From NCBI RefSeq assembly GCF_000568255.1, contig NZ_KK037166.1, positions 2,347,527 to 2,392,501 on the forward strand: 44,975 nt of DNA, read 5' to 3'. The stretch is from Kutzneria sp. 744 (GTDB lineage: Bacteria; Actinomycetota; Actinomycetes; Mycobacteriales; Pseudonocardiaceae). Shown in pieces: positions 3,366 through 27,600 of the stretch. The position numbers and the translations under genes are program-made. A model generated the notes under the pieces. The model made no database searches, had not been told where the DNA came from, and saw nothing but the letters and a program-made list of their open reading frames with translations. Each line of letters opens with the position of its first letter. The first letter of the stretch is position 1.

Positions 3366-3934
3366 TCACTCCCGGTGATGGCCGGGTGGCGTGACGGGGA
3401 CGGCTCGGAAAACAGTGTTGGATGGCGCCGCCTTCGGCGTCGCGGCACTGTGCTTTTTGCCGCGCGTGAGTGCGGGTTACTCGGGATCATCTGATTTGCT
3501 AAGCTATGTATGCCATCTACTCCCGACCGGCGTTAGTTAGTTAAACTCAAGTCTCTAGCGAGCTCCCAACGAAGAATACAAATCTACTGGGTATGCAACA
3601 CTAGCCGCCACCAAGTCTTTCCGCACGACTAGGCAAGTCTTGATGGGTGCTTGCCGGTGTTTGCAGCGCGCAACTTTGGCTCCGTGACCTCAGTGGCTAT
3701 GCTGGTCCCATACAGAGTGTGTAAGGGTCGGTTGGCCTGGTCGCCCCTATTGGTGACAAGGGGCAAGCTATTGGATTCTTCGCTCTAGTAACGGGTGAAG
3801 AACGGCGCGCATTCTAATGTTGACCGATGCCGCGCTTTAGAACAGAGCGTTGTGTGCGGGCGGGGCCGAGCGCTCTGTGGGGTTGGGGGTCAGCTGAAGG
3901 CGGGGCCGAGCGGTCGCTGGGTCGGCGGAGCGGG
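3366..3934. other. gene-free region with a low-GC island
   Basis: About 570 bases without a credible gene. From roughly 3470 to 3830 the composition drops (for example about 42% GC at 3541-3600) against the GC-rich surroundings. It holds a small hairpin (GCCCCT 3743-3748 / AGGGGC 3759-3764). A 19-base direct repeat (first copy 3887-3905, second 3932-3950) overlaps the end of the kinase gene. No tRNA fold or transposase remnant was recognised. It could be a small-RNA locus or an acquired remnant. Confidence 0.5.
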
Positions 3935-19833: not shown

Positions 19834-20244
19834 GCCAAACCCCCTTCGCGCCCCAGTATGCCGGCCAGCGTAGGCGGAAACGTCGGCCGGCGAAGCGCCT
19901 TTTCGGGTCGTTTGGGGTGAGGGGCTGCACTTTGGGGCAGCGTTGAGGTCGGGCGGACTCCGCCGGCACAACACAGTCGGGCTCTCTTCGGCATGCGGTG
20001 CTGGAGTGGAGGGGGCGCCAGGTGGGTGGGTGAGTGGGTTGCGTTGCGCGGCTTCGGATGGGCGGGTGCGCGCGTTTACTGATGGCTTGGGACGGGCCGA
20101 AGGGTAGGGGTTCGATCATGGAGAGGGAAGCGTTGAAAGGGAGGCTGGAAAGCGCTTTCCGACCAGGGCGATTTGAGCCGCCACGATCGTGTATAGGTTG
20201 GCGTGTAACGGAAGTCGATCACATATCGGGAGTAGAATGGGGGT
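19834..20244. other. intergenic region with a LacI-type palindrome
   Basis: No credible gene; the short open frames here lack ribosome sites. It contains the perfect palindrome GGAAAGCGCTTTCC and a less GC-rich stretch (20200-20240) that should be the promoter of the HNH gene. Confidence 0.5.
20147..20160. promoter_or_regulatory. palindrome GGAAAGCGCTTTCC (LacI-family-like operator)
   Basis: A perfect 14-base palindrome centred on CG, the form typical of LacI/GalR-family operators, 84 bases upstream of the HNH gene. No LacI gene is in the window, so the reading is inference. Confidence 0.4.
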
Positions 20245-21393
20245 ATGTCAGCGAATCCTGAATTCCCTGCCGACACCGAAGGGTGGCAGCACGGCGAACT
20301 GGAGCTGTGGCAAGCGGGCAAGGAAGCCGAAGCCCTGTATCGGGCGCTCTACATCCAGCAGCTGGAGCGGGTGTGGGAAGTCTGGGACCGGTCGTGCCGG
20401 TCGAAGGAGGACCGGACCTCGATCGTGTCGTCGATGGTGCTCCACTGGCGGCTCACGATCAGGGAAGCGCGTGAGCGGCTTCGGTACGCGGAACTGTTCC
20501 ACAGCGAGGCGATCCGCGAAGCAGGCCGCGCTGGGGCGTTGGACCGGCAGCACCTGAAGATCATCCACGAGACGCTGCGGATAGCGCCGGCGGTCGAGCG
20601 GAACCGGGTTGAGGCATCACTGTTGGAGAACGTCCCGTTCGACGAGGGTGAGTTCAAGAACATCGCGCAGCGGATCCTGTTTCACCTCGACCAGGACGGC
20701 AAGGCGCCGGATGATCGGGAGTTGCGGGAGCCGAAGCGGGAGTTCCGCTTCGAACGCAAGCTGGACGGCAGCATGGTGTTCTGGGGAAGGCTCGACCAGG
20801 AGTACGGTGCGAAGATCGCAGCGATGCTCAGTGCGCTGGCCAAGCCCACCTCCAGCACAGACCCCCGCACCACCGCCGAGCGGCAGGGCGACGCGTTCGC
20901 GGAGATCATCGAGCTGGCCTCCCGTAGTGAGGGCCTGCCGGAGCAGGGCGGCGAGCGGCCCCATCTGACGTTGTCCATGTCGTTCCAGGATTTCATGGAC
21001 AACACGGGTGTGGCGAAGGTCGAGGGTGGTGGCGTGATGAGCGCGGCGGAGGCCCGGCGGATCGCCTGTGACAGCACGGTGATGCGCCTGGTGCTCGGAG
21101 CCGGCAAAGAGATCCTGAATGTGGGCCGCCAGCAGCGCACAGCCCCGAAGGGGATCCGCAAGGCCCTGATCGAGCGGGACGGCAGCTGCGCGTTCCCCGG
21201 GTGTCACACGGAACCGGCGCGGTGTCACGCCCACCACGTGGTCGAGTGGGCTGACGGAGGGCCGACCAGCCTGGACAACATGGTGCTGCTGTGCGGGGCG
21301 CACCATAGGTTGATCCACCACAGTCGGTGGACGGTGACGATGGTGGACCATCGGCCGGTGTTCTCCGATGGGTTGGACGTTGCACGAGGATAG
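20245..21393 (+). CDS. DUF222 (13E12-type) protein with C-terminal HNH nuclease domain
   Basis: A 382-residue protein; the ATG follows GGGGG. Residues 30-290 form the helical DUF222 region of the mycobacterial REP13E12 family (WEVWDRSCRSKEDRTSIVSS; FRFERKLDGSMVFWGRLDQE). The C-terminus is a complete HNH domain with zinc-binding and catalytic residues: CAFPGCHTEPARCHAHHVV, then WADGGPTSLDNMVLLCGAHH. The family is abundant and often multicopy in actinobacteria; its function is unsettled (mobile or DNA-processing nucleases are suggested). Nine bases downstream lies a SUKH-like gene, suggesting co-expression. Confidence 0.9.
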   Translation: MSANPEFPADTEGWQHGELELWQAGKEAEALYRALYIQQLERVWEVWDRSCRSKEDRTSIVSSMVLHWRLTIREARERLRYAELFHSEAIREAGRAGALDRQHLKIIHETLRIAPAVERNRVEASLLENVPFDEGEFKNIAQRILFHLDQDGKAPDDRELREPKREFRFERKLDGSMVFWGRLDQEYGAKIAAMLSALAKPTSSTDPRTTAERQGDAFAEIIELASRSEGLPEQGGERPHLTLSMSFQDFMDNTGVAKVEGGGVMSAAEARRIACDSTVMRLVLGAGKEILNVGRQQRTAPKGIRKALIERDGSCAFPGCHTEPARCHAHHVVEWADGGPTSLDNMVLLCGAHHRLIHHSRWTVTMVDHRPVFSDGLDVARG

Positions 21394-21402
21394 GATGCGG
21401 CG

Positions 21403-21915
21403 GTGAGCAACGAAGCGTTCCCGGCGGCGCTGGCGGAAGTCGCGCGGGTGGACTTTCCCTACGACGGCGACGAAGACGTCGACTTCGAGCCGTACGGGGA
21501 GTTCCGGCCGGACGAAGAGACGGCGCACTGGCTGCCGCTCTGGACAGGCACGGATCGGCTGGATCCCAAAGACTTCCTGGTGATCGGGCAAGACGGCAGC
21601 GGGGGCTACGCGATCATCTGGCGGGCCAAGGAGGGCGCGGCGGTGAGCGAGCAGCCGGTGGTGTTCGTGGGATCCGAAGGCGAGCACGGGGTGATCGCCA
21701 GCGACCTGGGCGACTTCCTCTGGCTGCTGGCCGACGGATCGGGGCCGTACGAAGCGGTGGAAGAGCCGGAACGGGCGTCGAAACCCAACGCGGAGCTAAC
21801 GGCGATCGCGGAGCGGTGGGCGGCGGAGGCACGGAAGACGGCGGCCGAAGTTATTGCCCTGGCCCGAGAACGGTACCCGGAGTTCGAAAGGGTCATCGCG
21901 GACGCGATCGGCTAA
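21403..21915 (+). CDS. SMI1/KNR4 (SUKH)-like protein, possible immunity partner
   Basis: A 170-residue acidic protein starting at GTG nine bases after the HNH gene. FLVIGQDGSGGYAIIWRAKE, followed by VVFVGSEGEHGVIASDLGDF and LWLLADGSGPYEA, matches the SUKH fold, in which the G-x-G-x-x-x segment and the glutamate-rich edge are typical. SUKH proteins are widespread immunity proteins against nuclease toxins, including HNH types, but also occur in other roles. Context suggests a partner for the upstream nuclease. Its stop overlaps the stop of the convergent GH128 gene (CTAA at 21912-21915). Confidence 0.7.
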   Translation: MSNEAFPAALAEVARVDFPYDGDEDVDFEPYGEFRPDEETAHWLPLWTGTDRLDPKDFLVIGQDGSGGYAIIWRAKEGAAVSEQPVVFVGSEGEHGVIASDLGDFLWLLADGSGPYEAVEEPERASKPNAELTAIAERWAAEARKTAAEVIALARERYPEFERVIADAIG

Positions 21916-23117
21916 GAGGCGGCCCGGTAGGCGAGACCGACGTCGGTGGGCTGCCCGGACGACCGGTACAGGCCCGTGTCCTCGCCCTCGGACGGCAGGG
22001 CGAACCACGAATAGCGCTCCAAGAAAGGCAACGAATCCAGCATCGCGGCGGCATTGGTGACAAAAGCCGACTGCTGGGCCTGGGTGGGGAACTTGGGCGA
22101 GCCGGAGAAGTTGATCAAAGCGAACTCGGTGAGCCAGATGGGCTTGTGGTAGCGGGCGTACACGGCCTGGAGATAGCCCCGGAGCTGGCTGACGGCGGCG
22201 GCGCTGAAATCGGAGCCGTACCAGTGCAAAGGAATGAAATCGACGCGGTAGCCACGAGAAGCGGCGCCGGACATGAACTGGTCAAGCCAACCGCCGGCCC
22301 GGTCACCGCCGAAAGCGACAGCGGGACTGCCCAAACGCAAGCCGGTGGCCTGAAGCTGAGGCCAAAGGTCCAGGGCCTGGGCGGGGGTCATGTTGGACTG
22401 CTGAGCCATGTCAGGCTCGTTGAAGCCGAGCAACTGGGAACCCTGCTTCTTGACCTGAGCCAAGGTGTCGGCGGTGACCGACTTGGTGCCCCAGATCATC
22501 GGCACGAACTCGACGCCGGCTGGGGCGGCAATGGTGTTGTGGTTGGAATCCCAGTCGTAGAACCAACTCGCGCCGACATCCTTGAGCGAGGCCGTGGCGG
22601 CACCGAACGCCCACGTGCTGACGCCCTTGCGGGCCGACTTCTGCGCCGGGGACTGCTGCTGCGGCACCGCGCGGCTGCTCAACGCCGGCTTGGTCGACGT
22701 GGTGGTCGAGGTCGGCGGCGGCGATGCGCTGGTCGCGGTCGGGGCCGTCGTGGTCGCGACAGCCGTGGTGGTGATCGGGGCGGCGACGGCGATCGGCTGG
22801 GGCGCCGCGTACTTCGGGACGAGGACGGCAGCGACGACGGCGATGGCGGCGGCAGCGGCGACCAAGGGCTTCGTGGCGGCGTGCTGCCACCAGCGCTTGG
22901 GCGGCACAGACGGCGCCGAGGTGGGGACGGCACCGAAGTCGGCCGGGATCGGCACCAGAGGGATACCCAACAAGAGACGCTCGGCAGGCATCAGGTCGTC
23001 ACGACGGCAGCGGACGCAATCACGAACGTGACGGGCGATTCGCTTGCGCCACAGTGGCAAGTGCGGACAATCTAGCGAGGTGAGGTAAAAATTGAGCATC
23101 AGGATACCATTTGTCAT
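21912..23117 (-). CDS. zinc-finger/TM/GH128-like glycosidase, apparently the detached C-terminal half of an ECF sigma factor
   Basis: 401 residues if begun at the ATG at 23117, which has no ribosome site. C17, H30, C34 and C37 form an H-x3-C-x2-C zinc-associated anti-sigma signature (RIARHVRDCVRC). Residues 84-100 are one membrane helix, 105-160 a Pro/Ser/Thr linker, and 165-401 an Asl1-like GH128 domain with acid/base E234 in GFNEPDM and nucleophile E331 in IWLTEFA. The catalytic half should face the outside and cleave beta-glucan. In actinobacteria such zinc-finger/TM/carbohydrate domains usually form the C-terminus of ECF sigma factors. Here the sigma part lies upstream behind about 300 bases of low-GC DNA. 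Whether it is still translated is uncertain. Confidence 0.8.
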   Translation of the reverse strand: MTNGILMLNFYLTSLDCPHLPLWRKRIARHVRDCVRCRRDDLMPAERLLLGIPLVPIPADFGAVPTSAPSVPPKRWWQHAATKPLVAAAAAIAVVAAVLVPKYAAPQPIAVAAPITTTAVATTTAPTATSASPPPTSTTTSTKPALSSRAVPQQQSPAQKSARKGVSTWAFGAATASLKDVGASWFYDWDSNHNTIAAPAGVEFVPMIWGTKSVTADTLAQVKKQGSQLLGFNEPDMAQQSNMTPAQALDLWPQLQATGLRLGSPAVAFGGDRAGGWLDQFMSGAASRGYRVDFIPLHWYGSDFSAAAVSQLRGYLQAVYARYHKPIWLTEFALINFSGSPKFPTQAQQSAFVTNAAAMLDSLPFLERYSWFALPSEGEDTGLYRSSGQPTDVGLAYRAAS

Positions 23118-23425
23118 GATGAGGTGAATTCTGTTCTAGAAGTGCCGATGACGGTCCTCATGTCCTGCTACTGACACTAACAGATCCACTAACTCTGTAG
23201 TCCGCTGTGGTATCAGTCGAAGAGCCCAACGTGTCTGTGCGGCCTCTGGCGTTGCATGATTGTCGAAAATCGCGTATGTGTCCGAGGTATTTCGATGAAG
23301 TCAAATCTCACACGGCACCAAATCGTCAACTTGTAGTCGACTCGGTAGACTACGGTGTTGAGCGGCCCGTCTGGGAGGTGTGTAACTGAGAACGGTTTAG
23401 GCCCATCGCAAAGTATATCAGGATA
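23098..23425. repeat. low-GC segment bracketed by a 9-base direct repeat
   Basis: ATCAGGATA occurs at 23098-23106 and 23417-23425, exactly at the junctions between the sigma ORF, the low-GC DNA and the zinc-finger ORF. The roughly 310 bases between have no credible gene, visibly lower GC and no clear terminal inverted repeats. It may be an insertion with a target duplication, or a decayed element. The repeat is read in different frames in the two ORFs, so simple excision would not restore the gene. Confidence 0.5.
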
Positions 23426-23984
23426 TGTGGCCTTGTGTCAAAACCACCAGCCGGGCGGCGTCCAGCTTCGCGCATCCGCTGCACCGCACGGCCGTGTGCT
23501 GAGGCGTCAGACCCAAGCCCGCCGCCACCTCCGCCCGAGTCAACCGGCCGGCGGCCTCCAGCCACCACAGCGACAGCAGCTCGCGCTCGTCGTCCTCCAA
23601 CCACCGCGTCGCCTCGACCAGATCCTTGCGCTGGTCGGCCAAGTGCAGGCGGTCGATGGTCAGGTCGACGAAATCCGCGCCCGGATCGGCCACGTCGTCG
23701 GGCGGCACGGGCGGGAAACCCTCGCCGGCGCGGCGGCGCTTGCGGACCTCGCGCACGGCGATGACCACCAGCCACGAGCGGAAGTCCGCCGGGTCCGGCA
23801 GGCTGTGCAGGCCGTCCAGGGCGGCGAGCATGGTGTCCTGGACGGCGTCGTCCATGTCCGGGTGCCCGGCCATGGCCCGGCCCACAATGTTGTAGACCAG
23901 CGGCAGGTAGGCCGCCACCAGCTCGTCGAGGGCGTCATCGCGGCCCTTGCGCGCCGCGATGACCAGGTCCCAGTCGTCGCTCAC
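23418..23984 (-). CDS. ECF RNA polymerase sigma factor (probably truncated by a downstream insertion)
   Basis: 188 residues from the GTG of VSDDWDLVIAARKG, with GGGAG at 7 bases. Region 2 spans about 10-80 (ALDELVAAYLPLVYNIVGRA; DMDDAVQDTMLAAL; FRSWLVVIAVREVRKRRR) and region 4 about 115-165 (LEDDERELLSLWWLEAAGRL; AEVAAGLGLTPQHTAVRC). The frame then reads LDAARLVVLTQGHIS and stops inside the ATCAGGATA repeat. Homologous fusions continue after the LDAAR segment into a zinc finger, membrane helix and extracellular domain, which here begin at 23090 downwards. Loss of the fused anti-sigma zinc finger could make the factor constitutively active, or the locus may be dead. Confidence 0.85.
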   Translation of the reverse strand: MSDDWDLVIAARKGRDDALDELVAAYLPLVYNIVGRAMAGHPDMDDAVQDTMLAALDGLHSLPDPADFRSWLVVIAVREVRKRRRAGEGFPPVPPDDVADPGADFVDLTIDRLHLADQRKDLVEATRWLEDDERELLSLWWLEAAGRLTRAEVAAGLGLTPQHTAVRCSGCAKLDAARLVVLTQGHIS

Positions 23985-24098
23985 AACATCACTCCCGGAC
24001 GCGAGGCGGATTCCTCCGCATGCTCGCACCTACGCCCGGGAGCGCTCCACGTGTTCAATTCCACTGGCCGATTCACCAGCGGATAACGGTTTTTCGAC

Positions 24099-24755
24099 TC
24101 AGACGATTCGCCGGAAGGCGGCGTCGGCCACGCTCGGCGGCACCTCGTGCCCGCCCGTGAACTCACGGTAGTCGACGCGGTAGCCCACGATGCGCAGCGC
24201 GGGCACGATGCGACGGCTGGTGCCCTCGATCGGCAGCACGCCATCCTGGCGACCGTGCGACACGAACACCTCGGGCCTGCCGGCCCGAGCACCGGGCACG
24301 ACGAAGCCCGGCGAGAACGCCACCACGTCCTCGAACAGGGTGCCGTTCACCAGCCCCAACGACAGCGCGTACGAAGCCCCGTCCGAGAAGCCGGCGATCG
24401 TCGCCCGGCCCACCTCGAAGTGCTCGAACAGCTCGACCAGGCTGCGGTCCAGCGCCTCCACGTCCGGCCCGAAGTTCCCGTGGATCGCATCCCACGTTCT
24501 GGCGCCGGACTTCGGCGCGTACACCAGCGCCGGCCGGTCCTTCATCACGGTCAGCACCCGCTCAGGGGTCGAACCAGCCCCGTGCAACAGCACCACCAGC
24601 GGCACCGGCCCATCGGCCAGCCCCGCCGGCACCTGGAGCACCCCGTCCCCGAACTCGTGCCGACCCGCCGGCAGACGCTCCCGGGAAGGCGTCCCCGGCC
24701 GTGCGGCCAGCTCGCCCAGCCGCCAACCCGTGCCCAGCTGCGCCGTCGTGCCCAT
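24099..24755 (-). CDS. alpha/beta hydrolase (phospholipase/carboxylesterase type)
   Basis: 218 residues from the ATG of MGTTAQLGTG, with GGGAGG at 8 bases; the open frame reaches 24815 but those codons cover the operator. LVVLLHGAGSTPE (oxyanion region), TIAGFSDGASYAL (nucleophile Ser), SHGRQDGVLPI (Asp) and FTGGHEVPP (His) give a full triad of the esterase/LpqC-like group. No signal peptide is seen, so it is cytosolic. A 20-base palindrome 16 bases upstream of the start should control it. The partner regulator is not adjacent. Confidence 0.82.
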   Translation of the reverse strand: MGTTAQLGTGWRLGELAARPGTPSRERLPAGRHEFGDGVLQVPAGLADGPVPLVVLLHGAGSTPERVLTVMKDRPALVYAPKSGARTWDAIHGNFGPDVEALDRSLVELFEHFEVGRATIAGFSDGASYALSLGLVNGTLFEDVVAFSPGFVVPGARAGRPEVFVSHGRQDGVLPIEGTSRRIVPALRIVGYRVDYREFTGGHEVPPSVADAAFRRIV

Positions 24756-24770
24756 GGCCCACCCTCCCTT

Positions 24771-24790
24771 TGTACGACCTTTGTCGTACA
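24771..24790. promoter_or_regulatory. 20-base palindromic operator TGTACGAC-N4-GTCGTACA
   Basis: Perfect 8-base arms (24771-24778 and 24783-24790) around CTTT, overlapping the promoter/leader of the hydrolase gene. The form is typical of TetR- or MarR-type operators; the binding protein is unknown. Confidence 0.65.
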
Positions 24791-24831
24791 CAACCGCGAG
24801 GGTTGGCGATTCCATTCCCAGGGTGGGCGAA

Positions 24832-24921
24832 CGGGCAGGTGGAGAGGGTGGATCGGCCGGCCGGGCAGGTGGAAAGGGTGCATCGCCCGGCCGGGCTGGC
24901 GGGGGAGTGGATCAGCCGGTC
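24832..24921. repeat. three imperfect tandem repeats of 30 bases
   Basis: Units at 24832-24861, 24862-24891 and 24892-24921, each opening with CGGGC. The first two differ at only a few bases; the third is more diverged and includes the stop codon of the DUF4365 gene (24912-24914). Confidence 0.75.
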
Positions 24922-26273
24922 GACGCCTTCCGTACGAATCTCTCCTCGGGCCAGAAGGTGTCCCCCAGCCATAGCCGATCAAACTGCACGCAGACCGCTC
25001 CCGGCGTGTCCTCGGAATCCCAGACGGCTCGCACGGTCCGACCACGTTCATTCCCATACCGGCTCAGCCAGTAGATCCGGTCGCCCGGCCGGAGCTCATA
25101 GGGCGACACGAACTCCCGGTGCGGCGACTTGCGAAAGCTCGGTCGTCCTACTCGTGCATCGAAGCTGTACTCCTCGGCCGGCCTAGGGCATCGCCACTCG
25201 ATCCGGAACTGCTCGTCGATCGGCAACGCCGGTACGCTCACCTTAAGCTCTTTAACCACATAAAACGTGACGAGCCGGCGCGCCTTCTCTGACATCTCGC
25301 GCCACGGCTTCGACCGTGCTTCGGCACAGACCTCGGCATCCGACTCCAACTCTGTGGCCATGGCTGCCAGTTCGTGGTCGGTCTCGGCTTCGCCGTGGAG
25401 CTTCTTGATCGACCGGGTCAGCGAGTCGGGCTCCATACGGAGGTGGTGCTCGACGCGCCTGGCCACGTAGTTGTCACGCGCGTCGAGGTTCGTGCGCAGC
25501 GGCGGCTCGTCGGCGCGCCTGTCGGCCCACCGAGCCGCGTCCAAGCATGCCGCCAACCACTGCGCCTCAGGCTTTTCCAGAATCGTGTCCAACACTACGG
25601 CCATGCCGCGCAGCAGGCCCGGTCGACCATCGGGAAAGAAGTGCTCGGGGCCGAAGTGCTCCGGGTACCAGTCAAGATCGCTGTGGAGCAGCGTCGCGAA
25701 GCCCTCGCCCCGGCGCTGCCAGAAGATCATGTCTTCGCCGTGGATGTTCACGTGGTGCTGGACGACGTCCGTCGGGCCAAACTCGACGCCCGCCATCTCT
25801 CCCAACGGGCCGTGGATGCCCCGATAGCTGTGGAGATAGGCCCTGACCTGAGCGACGAAGTCCGCCATGGAGTCGTCGTCTACCTGATGGACGACGTTGA
25901 TCGTCTTGAGCACCTTGCGGTTGCGTCGGGCCGACCGCAGTTGCTTGGTGGCGTTGGCCCAGTACAGCCCGTCGGCGTCCGGGTCGTGCACGACGCAGAG
26001 CACCGGGATGTTGCCGTCGGCCCAGTTCTCGCCGTGGTCGCCGACCGGCACGCCAAATCCGTCGGCGCGGCGCCATGAGCGGCCGCCCTTGACCTGGATC
26101 TTGACTACGTCGCCGGTGACCATGCCGTTCTCTGTGAAGGTGACGTGCAGGTCCTCACCGAAGTCGTTCTGGCCGTCGACTTCCTGGACGATGTGGTTGT
26201 GCCGCTCCAGCAGCGCTCGCAGCGCGTTGACCGCCGCGCGGCCGGTTCTGCGGGCGTCGGGCACTTTCGGCAA
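24912..26273 (-). CDS. DUF4365-domain protein (PD-(D/E)XK nuclease-like) with unknown C-terminal part
   Basis: 453 residues from a TTG with GGGGGA at 5 bases (a GTG three codons later is possible). Residues 5-125 match DUF4365: GRAAVNALRALLERHNHIVQ, NDFGEDLHVTF with acids at 37, 40 and 41, then VVKIQVKGG with the Q-x-K pair at 60-62, and NIPVLCVVHDPDADGLYWAN. This is the core of PD-(D/E)XK-type nucleases, often found in phage-defence or mobile regions. The middle (150-330) is helical and charged, and the C-terminus (380-450) looks like a small beta domain (LRPGDRIYWLSRYGNERGRT). No partner genes for a known defence system adjoin it. Function uncertain. Confidence 0.65.
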   Translation of the reverse strand: MPKVPDARRTGRAAVNALRALLERHNHIVQEVDGQNDFGEDLHVTFTENGMVTGDVVKIQVKGGRSWRRADGFGVPVGDHGENWADGNIPVLCVVHDPDADGLYWANATKQLRSARRNRKVLKTINVVHQVDDDSMADFVAQVRAYLHSYRGIHGPLGEMAGVEFGPTDVVQHHVNIHGEDMIFWQRRGEGFATLLHSDLDWYPEHFGPEHFFPDGRPGLLRGMAVVLDTILEKPEAQWLAACLDAARWADRRADEPPLRTNLDARDNYVARRVEHHLRMEPDSLTRSIKKLHGEAETDHELAAMATELESDAEVCAEARSKPWREMSEKARRLVTFYVVKELKVSVPALPIDEQFRIEWRCPRPAEEYSFDARVGRPSFRKSPHREFVSPYELRPGDRIYWLSRYGNERGRTVRAVWDSEDTPGAVCVQFDRLWLGDTFWPEERFVRKASTG

Positions 26274-26352
26274 CGGATCCCCCGATCATGCTGCGGTCAG
26301 GGCGATCTCGGACTGAGCAGCCCCCGAATCGAGCCTAGACCCCGGGCCTGAC

Positions 26353-26397
26353 AATGCCGACCGGAGCGATCTTGGTCGATCGCTGACGGCCGGCATT
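26353..26397 (-). terminator. hairpin terminator of the Atu/Liu-like operon
   Basis: AATGCCG and AGCGATC on the left pair with CGGCATT and GATCGCT on the right, with an internal mismatch bubble, 45-90 bases past the stop of the last operon gene. Confidence 0.7.
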
Positions 26398-26442
26398 CCC
26401 AGGTTGATCCGGTTGGATTGATTCGGGGGCGGCTCGAAGCGG

Positions 26443-27600
26443 CTAGTACGACTTGGGCAGGCCCAGGGTGTGCTGGGAGACGTAGTTGAGGATCATCTCC
26501 CGGCTGACCGGGGCGATGCGGCCCAGCCGGGACGCCCCGAGCAGGGCGCCGAGGCCGTACTCGGTGGCCAGGCCGTTGCCGCCGTGGGACTGGATGGCCT
26601 GGTCGACGGTGGCGGTGGCGGCCTCGGCGGCGGAGTACTTGGCCATGTTCGCGGCCTCGCCGGCGCCCTTGTCGTCGCCGGCGTCGTAGAGCGCGGCGGC
26701 CTTCTGGGTCATCAGGCGGGCGAGCTCGACCTGGATGGCGCACTGGGCCAGCGGGTGGGCAAGGCCCTGGTGGGCGCCGATGGGGGTGTCCCACACCTTG
26801 CGCGTCTTGACGTACTCGGTCGCGCGGCCCAGGGCGTTGCGGGCCAGGCCGGTGGAGAACGAGGCGGCCATGATGCGCTCGGGGTTGAGGCCGGCGAACA
26901 GCTGCCCGATGCCGGCGTCGGGCGCGCCGACCAGGGCGTCGGCGGGCAGGCGGACCTCGTCGAAGAACAGGGTGAACTGCTTCTCCGGCGAGACGATGTC
27001 CATCTCGATGGGCTGCCACTCGAAGCCGGGGGCGTCGGTCGGCACGATCATGAGGGACGGCAGCAGGCGCTGGCCCTTGGAGTCCACGTGCCGGGCGACG
27101 ACGAGCACGGCGTCGGCCTCGTCGACGCCGGAGATGTAGGTCTTGCGGCCGTTGAGCACCCACTCGTCGCCCTCGCGGCGGATGGCGGTGGACAGCTTGT
27201 GCGAGTTGGAGCCGGCGTCGGGCTCGGTGATCGCGAAGGCCATCTTGGTGGTGCCCTCGGCGAAGCCGGGCAGCCACCGCTGCTTCTGCTCGGCGGTGCC
27301 GAAGCGGGCGATGATGGTGGCGCAGATGGCCGGCGACACGACCATCATCAGCAGCGGGCTGCCGGCGGCGGCCAGTTCCTCGCACACGGCGGCGAGATCG
27401 CCGATGCCGCCGCCACCGCCGCCGAACTCCTCGGGCACGGCGACGCCGAGATAGCCGAGCTTGCCGGCCTCGGACCACAGCTCGGTGGTCTTCTCGCCGG
27501 CCCGCGCCTTGGCCGTGAAGTACTCGGAGCCGTATTGGGACCCGAACTCGAAGACGGCCTTGCGCAGCGCCTGCCGCTCCTCGCTCTCGACAAAGCTCAT
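26443..27600 (-). CDS. acyl-CoA dehydrogenase
   Basis: 385 residues; its ATG overlaps the stop of the carboxylase alpha gene (ATGA). Flavin and substrate motifs are in place: FAITEPDAGSNSHKLSTAIR, KTYISGVDEADAVLVVA, RKVWDTPIGAHQGLAHPLAQ and IQSHGGNGLATEYGLG. The C-terminus (RIAPVSREMILNYVSQHTLG) has the helix that ends these enzymes. The residue expected as catalytic base in the usual late position is not a clear Glu, which fits the subgroup with branched or bulky acyl chains. It oxidises an acyl-CoA within the operon pathway. Last gene, with a terminator beyond. Confidence 0.93.
   Translation of the reverse strand: MSFVESEERQALRKAVFEFGSQYGSEYFTAKARAGEKTTELWSEAGKLGYLGVAVPEEFGGGGGGIGDLAAVCEELAAAGSPLLMMVVSPAICATIIARFGTAEQKQRWLPGFAEGTTKMAFAITEPDAGSNSHKLSTAIRREGDEWVLNGRKTYISGVDEADAVLVVARHVDSKGQRLLPSLMIVPTDAPGFEWQPIEMDIVSPEKQFTLFFDEVRLPADALVGAPDAGIGQLFAGLNPERIMAASFSTGLARNALGRATEYVKTRKVWDTPIGAHQGLAHPLAQCAIQVELARLMTQKAAALYDAGDDKGAGEAANMAKYSAAEAATATVDQAIQSHGGNGLATEYGLGALLGASRLGRIAPVSREMILNYVSQHTLGLPKSY

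Follow-up and report, generated by a model that had tools for sequence, protein, structure and literature searches.

Does the split of an ECF sigma factor from its zinc finger, membrane helix, and glycosidase in Kutzneria sp. 744 reflect the biology of the organism, or the way in which its genome was put together? The window that we analyzed comprises 44,975 nucleotides (G000:C1:2347527-2392501) of a genome (G000) represented by a single 11.65 Mb sequence. Two open reading frames (ORFs) are present on the minus strand at the positions originally given for them. The first (23418-23984, GTG at 23984, ORF listed from 24029) encodes the sigma part, in which a Pfam scan locates Sigma70_r2 (PF04542, E 1.6e-12); its closest named relatives, from Lentzea and Umezawaea, share 66-70% identity with it. 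The original prediction had placed both sigma regions 2 and 4 in this ORF. The former is borne out by the Pfam match. In region 4, the recognition helix is scrambled in the assembled sequence, and a region-4 Pfam match is found neither in the window nor in the four relatives scanned. The second ORF (21912-23117) indeed carries an H-x3-C-x2-C zinc finger (HVRDCVRC) together with a putative membrane helix (PLVAAAAAIAVVAAVLVP, read by eye) and a GH128 part. The latter is matched by Glyco_hydro_cc, the Pfam family that we take to be GH128 (E 2.6e-53 to 2.7e-53), and its best solved relative is PDB 6uaq (query residues 160-400, E 1.6e-98). NEP and TEF motifs are both found in this ORF, and their glutamates are presumably catalytic. 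Inspection by eye revealed no Shine-Dalgarno-like run upstream of 23117, in agreement with the ribosome site reported missing there.

Homologs of the two ORFs occur as single chains. The GH ORF is matched in 18 of 60 genomes searched (G000 being one of the 60), and the congeners G005, G002, and G001 match it at 83, 81, and 78%, each within one long, unbroken frame (602, 601, and 589 amino acids, respectively). In these frames the sigma part is followed by a linker with RCP, the sequence WDxRPSPLWRKR, the H-x3-C-x2-C finger, the helix, and the GH128 domain; the zinc finger/membrane part shares a chain with sigma in all three congeners and forms a separate ORF in the window as assembled. Synteny with the three continues on both sides of the locus, and the sigma part is 87-92% identical to theirs at the amino acid level up to a damaged helix (see below). 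In all of the best 80 named loci out of 255 encoding stretches found, a single ORF begins with the sigma part, crosses the junction, and includes the finger, and in 17 of these 80 it continues through GH128. Seven further whole-genome loci (L006, L007, L017, L021, L022, L025, and L026) have one ORF across the junction, and ten (L008-L016 and L020) match in the GH domain only, the region upstream of it lying outside the comparison. The two-ORF layout is seen in no locus with a sigma part that we found, apart from that of the window itself, and none of the close relatives compared shares it. Because single-chain homologs exist and align from end to end, the assembled locus is, as had been suspected, a disrupted member of an architecture that is known in single-chain form. 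Both halves show a dN/dS of 0.10-0.20 relative to the congeners, as expected of an unbroken gene.

Comparison with the congeners also locates the break. The alignment with each of the three breaks off at 23442-23443 and is taken up again at 23053, within the second ORF, and 388-389 bp replace 70-71 bp. The foreign block, bordered by BLAST against G005, G002, and G001, thus covers 23054-23442 (389 bp, 49% GC). The lowest-GC 383-base interval of the whole 45 kb (10-base step) sits between the two ORFs; the low GC originally noted there stands, and the extent of about 0.3 kb does not. Four in-frame stops (23420, 23399, 23303, and 23138) separate the halves. Adjoining the block edge (23471-23487, minus strand), deletions of 1 base (about 23484) and 2 bases (about 23472) relative to all three congeners change VRVQRMRAKLD to VRCSGCAKLD in the recognition helix of region 4.2. 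Every relative matched by our pattern (78 of 78; 91 tried) has a Cys in the linker, and the window has lost this residue together with the linker. Neither the two deletions, nor the loss of the Cys, nor the four stops had been mentioned in the original prediction.

These lesions bear on the proposal that the sigma factor has been freed from its tethered finger, with separate production of the GH128 protein from a promoter-like site at the block edge. Such a site exists: a Sigma70-like match (TTGACA-18-TATACT, 11 of 12 positions) lies at 23412-23441 on the minus strand and is the only one of its kind in 21000-25500 (shuffle mean 0.4, sd 0.5), although it would be a chance match if the block is filler. 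The GH part is under purifying selection, with 48 synonymous and 8 nonsynonymous changes specific to G000, but this signal would be equal if the gene of the organism were intact. GH128 proteins without sigma part and finger are found at the ten GH-only loci listed above, and yet the split layout is absent from every other locus in which we found a sigma part. With the recognition helix scrambled and the linker lost, it is unlikely that a freed sigma factor would work, even if the assembly is taken as it stands, and no ribosome site was seen ahead of the second ORF. We consider a functional split highly improbable.

An insertion with target duplication had been proposed for the origin of the block. 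The repeat on which this reading was built, ATCAGGATA, is confirmed at 23098-23106 and 23417-23425, and removal of the 319 bases that set the copies apart would leave 70 bp, with 71 bp in the congeners. However, both copies lie within the block (span 23098-23425), at distances of 17 and 44 bases from its ends and off the homology borders, between which 389 bp replace 71. When the flanks are joined at ATCAGGATA, the resulting 70-bp "empty site" is equaled by shuffled sequences in fractions of 0.27, 0.23, and 0.58 against the linkers of the three congeners (1000 shuffles); the congener linkers score 37-43 against each other, whereas the remnant scores like the shuffles. A repeated 9-mer of some kind arises in 18% of shuffled blocks, and the ATCAGGATA pair is likely a chance match. 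Target-site duplication was rejected on the grounds that the remnant linker is unrelated to those of the congeners. The ends of the block do not form a pair of inverted repeats, the G000 genome contains no second copy of it, and neither a family set (390 genomes) nor an order set (397 genomes, overlapping with the former) contains a match at E <= 0.001 outside G000. At E <= 1, some match is found in 134 of the 390 family genomes, G000 included, with lengths of 17-45 bases outside G000. We thus regard a small mobile element inserted with a 9-bp target duplication as extremely unlikely.

Other origins fared no better. Plasmids and E. coli genomes contain no match to the block, and six phage records have matches of 25-36 bases (E 0.4-5); an origin from phage, plasmid, or IS was rejected, as no relative was found in the sets searched. 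A structured RNA was dismissed on a single Rfam match far below the gathering score (19.8 of 50 bits) and a folding z of 0.68, and no tRNA was detected in the block. The 74-codon open frame at 23213-23437 was rejected as a protein fragment: at E values of up to 10 it has no family match in Pfam or PHROG, it has no viral relative, its tblastn matches have E values of 2-10 only, and matches in its own genome, besides itself, are at E 1 or worse.

Blocks of this kind recur elsewhere in the genome. Where further copies of a mobile element (discussed below) sit in G000, the surrounding loci contain many stretches that do not align with the congeners; most, with 57-76% GC, look like the usual differences in gene content, and two consist of N runs. 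Picking for low GC (45-49%) among the unaligned stretches gave four further blocks: L178 9311-9799 (489 bp for 321 in two congeners), L197 9497-9978 (482 bp for 126 in two congeners), L175 3198-3445 (248 bp for 176 in three congeners), and L177 1755-2120 (366 bp for 31, bounded against G002 only). The four share no significant similarity with one another. Compared with uniform random letters, their dinucleotide P values are 0.98 (L178), 0.98 (L197), 0.48 (L175), and 0.10 (L177, which fits less well, with a base composition P of 0.03); the window block alone gives P values of 0.02 for dinucleotides and 0.03 for trinucleotides. Pooled, the five blocks (1974 bp) conform to uniform random letters (chi2 15.0, P 0.44), whereas five natural low-GC stretches, taken from islands in a congener (L243) and in G000 (L219) and totaling 1913 bp, do not (chi2 168, 0 of 2000). 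Single natural control stretches have a dinucleotide P < 0.05 in 12 of 14 cases, and the two exceptions (L219 11491-11930 and window 3441-3700) are also flagged as random-like by a likelihood scan. Low-GC stretches of a G000 sample, which have rough edges, show P > 0.05 in 11 of 14 cases and P < 0.05 in 3 of 14.

The likelihood scan called segments random-like if they had at least 150 bp, a GC content of 0.42-0.58, and a dinucleotide P > 0.01. It returned 14 segments in 400 kb of G000, some of which may be of natural origin, compared with 0 in the 360 kb scanned for G005 and G002, where two segments failed the call only on a GC content of 0.60; there is one in 40 kb of G006. The element loci together with the window (166 kb) contain seven, two of them in the window. 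The second of these is intergenic (3447-3856) and is probably filler too: window 3437-3934 is unaligned, and G001 has 95 bp in its place. We counted 23 N runs, 13 of exactly 100, in 20 G000 samples (L209-L228), as against none in 20 congener samples (400 kb); some N runs may be operators' masks. At another place in the window, a DUF4365 gene (24840-26444, minus strand, about 450 amino acids) is not aligned at the corresponding place in the three congeners.

Small indels are concentrated at most of the block edges, as they are at contig ends. The L178, L197, and L175 blocks fall in open frames of at least two congeners (284-499 amino acids, third-position GC 0.86-0.94), and L177 is less clear in this respect. 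Indels found only in G000 lie within 120 bp of an edge at the window block, L178, L175, and L197, and not clearly at L177. Elsewhere in the window, only two places, near 19858 and 24769, show frame-changing indels relative to all three congeners at once, and both fall in the first codons, which are poorly conserved, of two called ORFs. If a filled gap were flanked by contig ends, the edge indels and the congener open frames would be explained together.

A real and recent disruption could leave similar traces at this one locus: a double-strand break, end-joined with capture of foreign DNA, the loss of 71 bp, and small indels would give a young pseudogene. Consistent with this, the replacement has indels adjoining it, the G000 genome contains three Ku matches, and a mobile HNH element surrounded by a substitution halo is only 1.7 kb away. 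The mild non-uniformity of the window block is also in its favor. Against filler count both this non-uniformity and the 11 of 12 promoter match, whose probability in 389 random bases we estimate at about 0.005. But captures of random composition would then be needed at many places in G000, with none in 360 kb of two congeners, and similar blocks, again with edge indels, are seen at other loci. A young pseudogene is therefore unlikely.

We conclude that the gene split is very probably an assembly artifact in which a gap has been filled with random letters. The break, the orthology with single-chain genes, the random-like pooled composition, and the excess of such segments in G000 are observed; from these, we infer that the letters come from the assembly and that the gene of the organism is probably intact. 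The claim is made from the assembled sequence. A random-letter stretch would thus fill a gap inside a normal ECF sigma - zinc finger - membrane helix - GH128 gene encoding a single chain, and low-quality contig ends beside the filled gap would carry the small indels. The intact protein would probably work as its relatives do: the fused finger would keep the sigma domain membrane-bound, and release of sigma, probably by proteolysis, may follow an event at the GH128 domain on the outside, as has been proposed in the literature for ECF52/53. The best fit is that the block belongs to the many random-letter stretches of this assembly, so that a dead locus and a freed sigma factor, the two outcomes originally considered, both probably describe an artifact, and the split is probably not a real biological feature. 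Random letters in a genome represented by one sequence can thus produce a striking domain split. A comparison with congeners, followed by a uniform-dinucleotide test of the odd block, provides a quick test, and claims of broken genes or low-GC islands from the G000 genome need that check.

The GH half bears a second signal, which looks real and more interesting than the split. Its pS on the G000 branch is 0.41, compared with 0.04-0.11 in four other window genes. This high synonymous divergence prompted us to consider whether the GH half had been imported, with a diverged lineage as the donor. However, changes in 21391-23053 are strand-asymmetric (93:16), and the halo in the window covers the flanks of a multicopy mobile element with DUF222 and HNH domains (19982-21376, plus strand, defined by common copy boundaries) out to about 24800. 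The element is missing from the same site in the three congeners; it has 12 matches in G000 at E <= 1e-100, and G001, G005, and G006 contain only relatives of 48-59% identity. We compared 10 of the 12 element sites (including L173-L178 and L197-L199), leaving out L162 (match in one congener only) and L168 (partial copy, two congeners). On both sides of the element, and whatever its own orientation, G>C, C>T, and G>T changes are in excess on the strand whose 3' end faces it. Counts of these facing changes versus G>A, C>G, and C>A are 174:70, 286:61, 235:54, 171:47, and 134:58 in the first five 500-bp bins outward and 116:49, 100:68, 70:60, 69:54, and 75:75 in the next five, the halo fading over about 3.5 kb. 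The excess is present in 17 of 18 covered flanks of the 10 sites, with one tie (10:10). A local mutational process fits this strand asymmetry at 10 sites better than import does.

Transcription is disfavored as the cause, as the asymmetry holds for genes directed toward the element (596:171), for genes directed away from it (245:76), and for positions with no called gene (159:43). Within 2.5 kb of the same sites, other lineages taken as targets lean mildly in the opposite direction (G005 363:468, G002 226:312, and G001 456:630); lineage-specific skews thus exist, and binomial p values overstate the certainty. Fourteen other centers in the window gave ratios from 42:66 to 42:26, compared with 145:45 for the element center. 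We relied on the strand and flank counts above and on this center comparison instead of a maximum-segment scan of the window, which gave a broad segment, the two change classes being unbalanced. Of the facing changes within 2.5 kb that lie in coding sequence, 622 of 841 are at third codon positions, a bias that sequencing errors would not produce. Starts of G000-specific insertions amount to 0.75 and 0.61 per kb within 2 kb of the element and to 0-0.12 per kb at 2-6 kb, and G000-specific deletions show no dependence on distance from it. A plausible mechanism, which we infer from this pattern, would be repeated double-strand breaks at the DUF222/HNH element, with 5' resection followed by error-prone repair of the 3' single strands. 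That the halo over the GH half and its neighbors is real, and that such breaks make it a bacterial counterpart of a mutation shower, appears to us about evenly balanced between true and false. If confirmed, an HNH mobile element would leave a lasting, strand-oriented mutational footprint on neighboring host genes.

If the gene of the organism is intact, it would encode a membrane-tethered ECF factor that has its own anti-sigma finger and, on the outside, a GH128 domain; this design is not new. Passages of three papers describe the ECF52 and ECF53 groups of Actinobacteria (e.g. SCO4117) as joining sigma factor, zinc finger, membrane helix, and an outside carbohydrate-related domain in one chain (PMC10766802, PMC5826349, PMC8999054); glycosyl hydrolase domains have been predicted for some members (PMC10766802), and release by proteolysis has been put forward as a proposal (PMC8999054, PMC5826349). 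Unlike these, the window locus as assembled consists of two ORFs with a scrambled region 4.2, and a group number within ECF52/53 is for this locus a lead only. The SCO4117 ortholog of S. clavuligerus likewise has its domains in split ORFs, for which its authors suspected a sequence error, according to a passage of that report (PMC5826349). The domain aligned with GH128 glycosidases of solved structure (PDB 6uaq and others) is joined in the congeners to membrane helix, finger, and sigma domain. The blocks resemble random-letter gap filling in their near-uniform composition, lack of relatives, abrupt edges, and occurrence as several unrelated blocks per genome; some software converts N into random bases. 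With its DUF222 and HNH domains and multiple copies, the element at 19982-21376 is like the REP13E12 / DUF222-HNH repeats, and REP13E12, HNH endonuclease, and DUF222 are named together in a passage of PMC10589994. The passages of the literature searched contain no report of a strand-asymmetric halo around such repeats. The closest likeness in our comparison is kataegis, described in a passage on breast cancer genomes as same-strand clustered changes near DNA breaks, with deaminases (PMC3628087). The halo shares with it the same-strand clustering of changes, and differs in that it is found in a bacterium, surrounds a mobile HNH element, and consists of changes filtered by selection.
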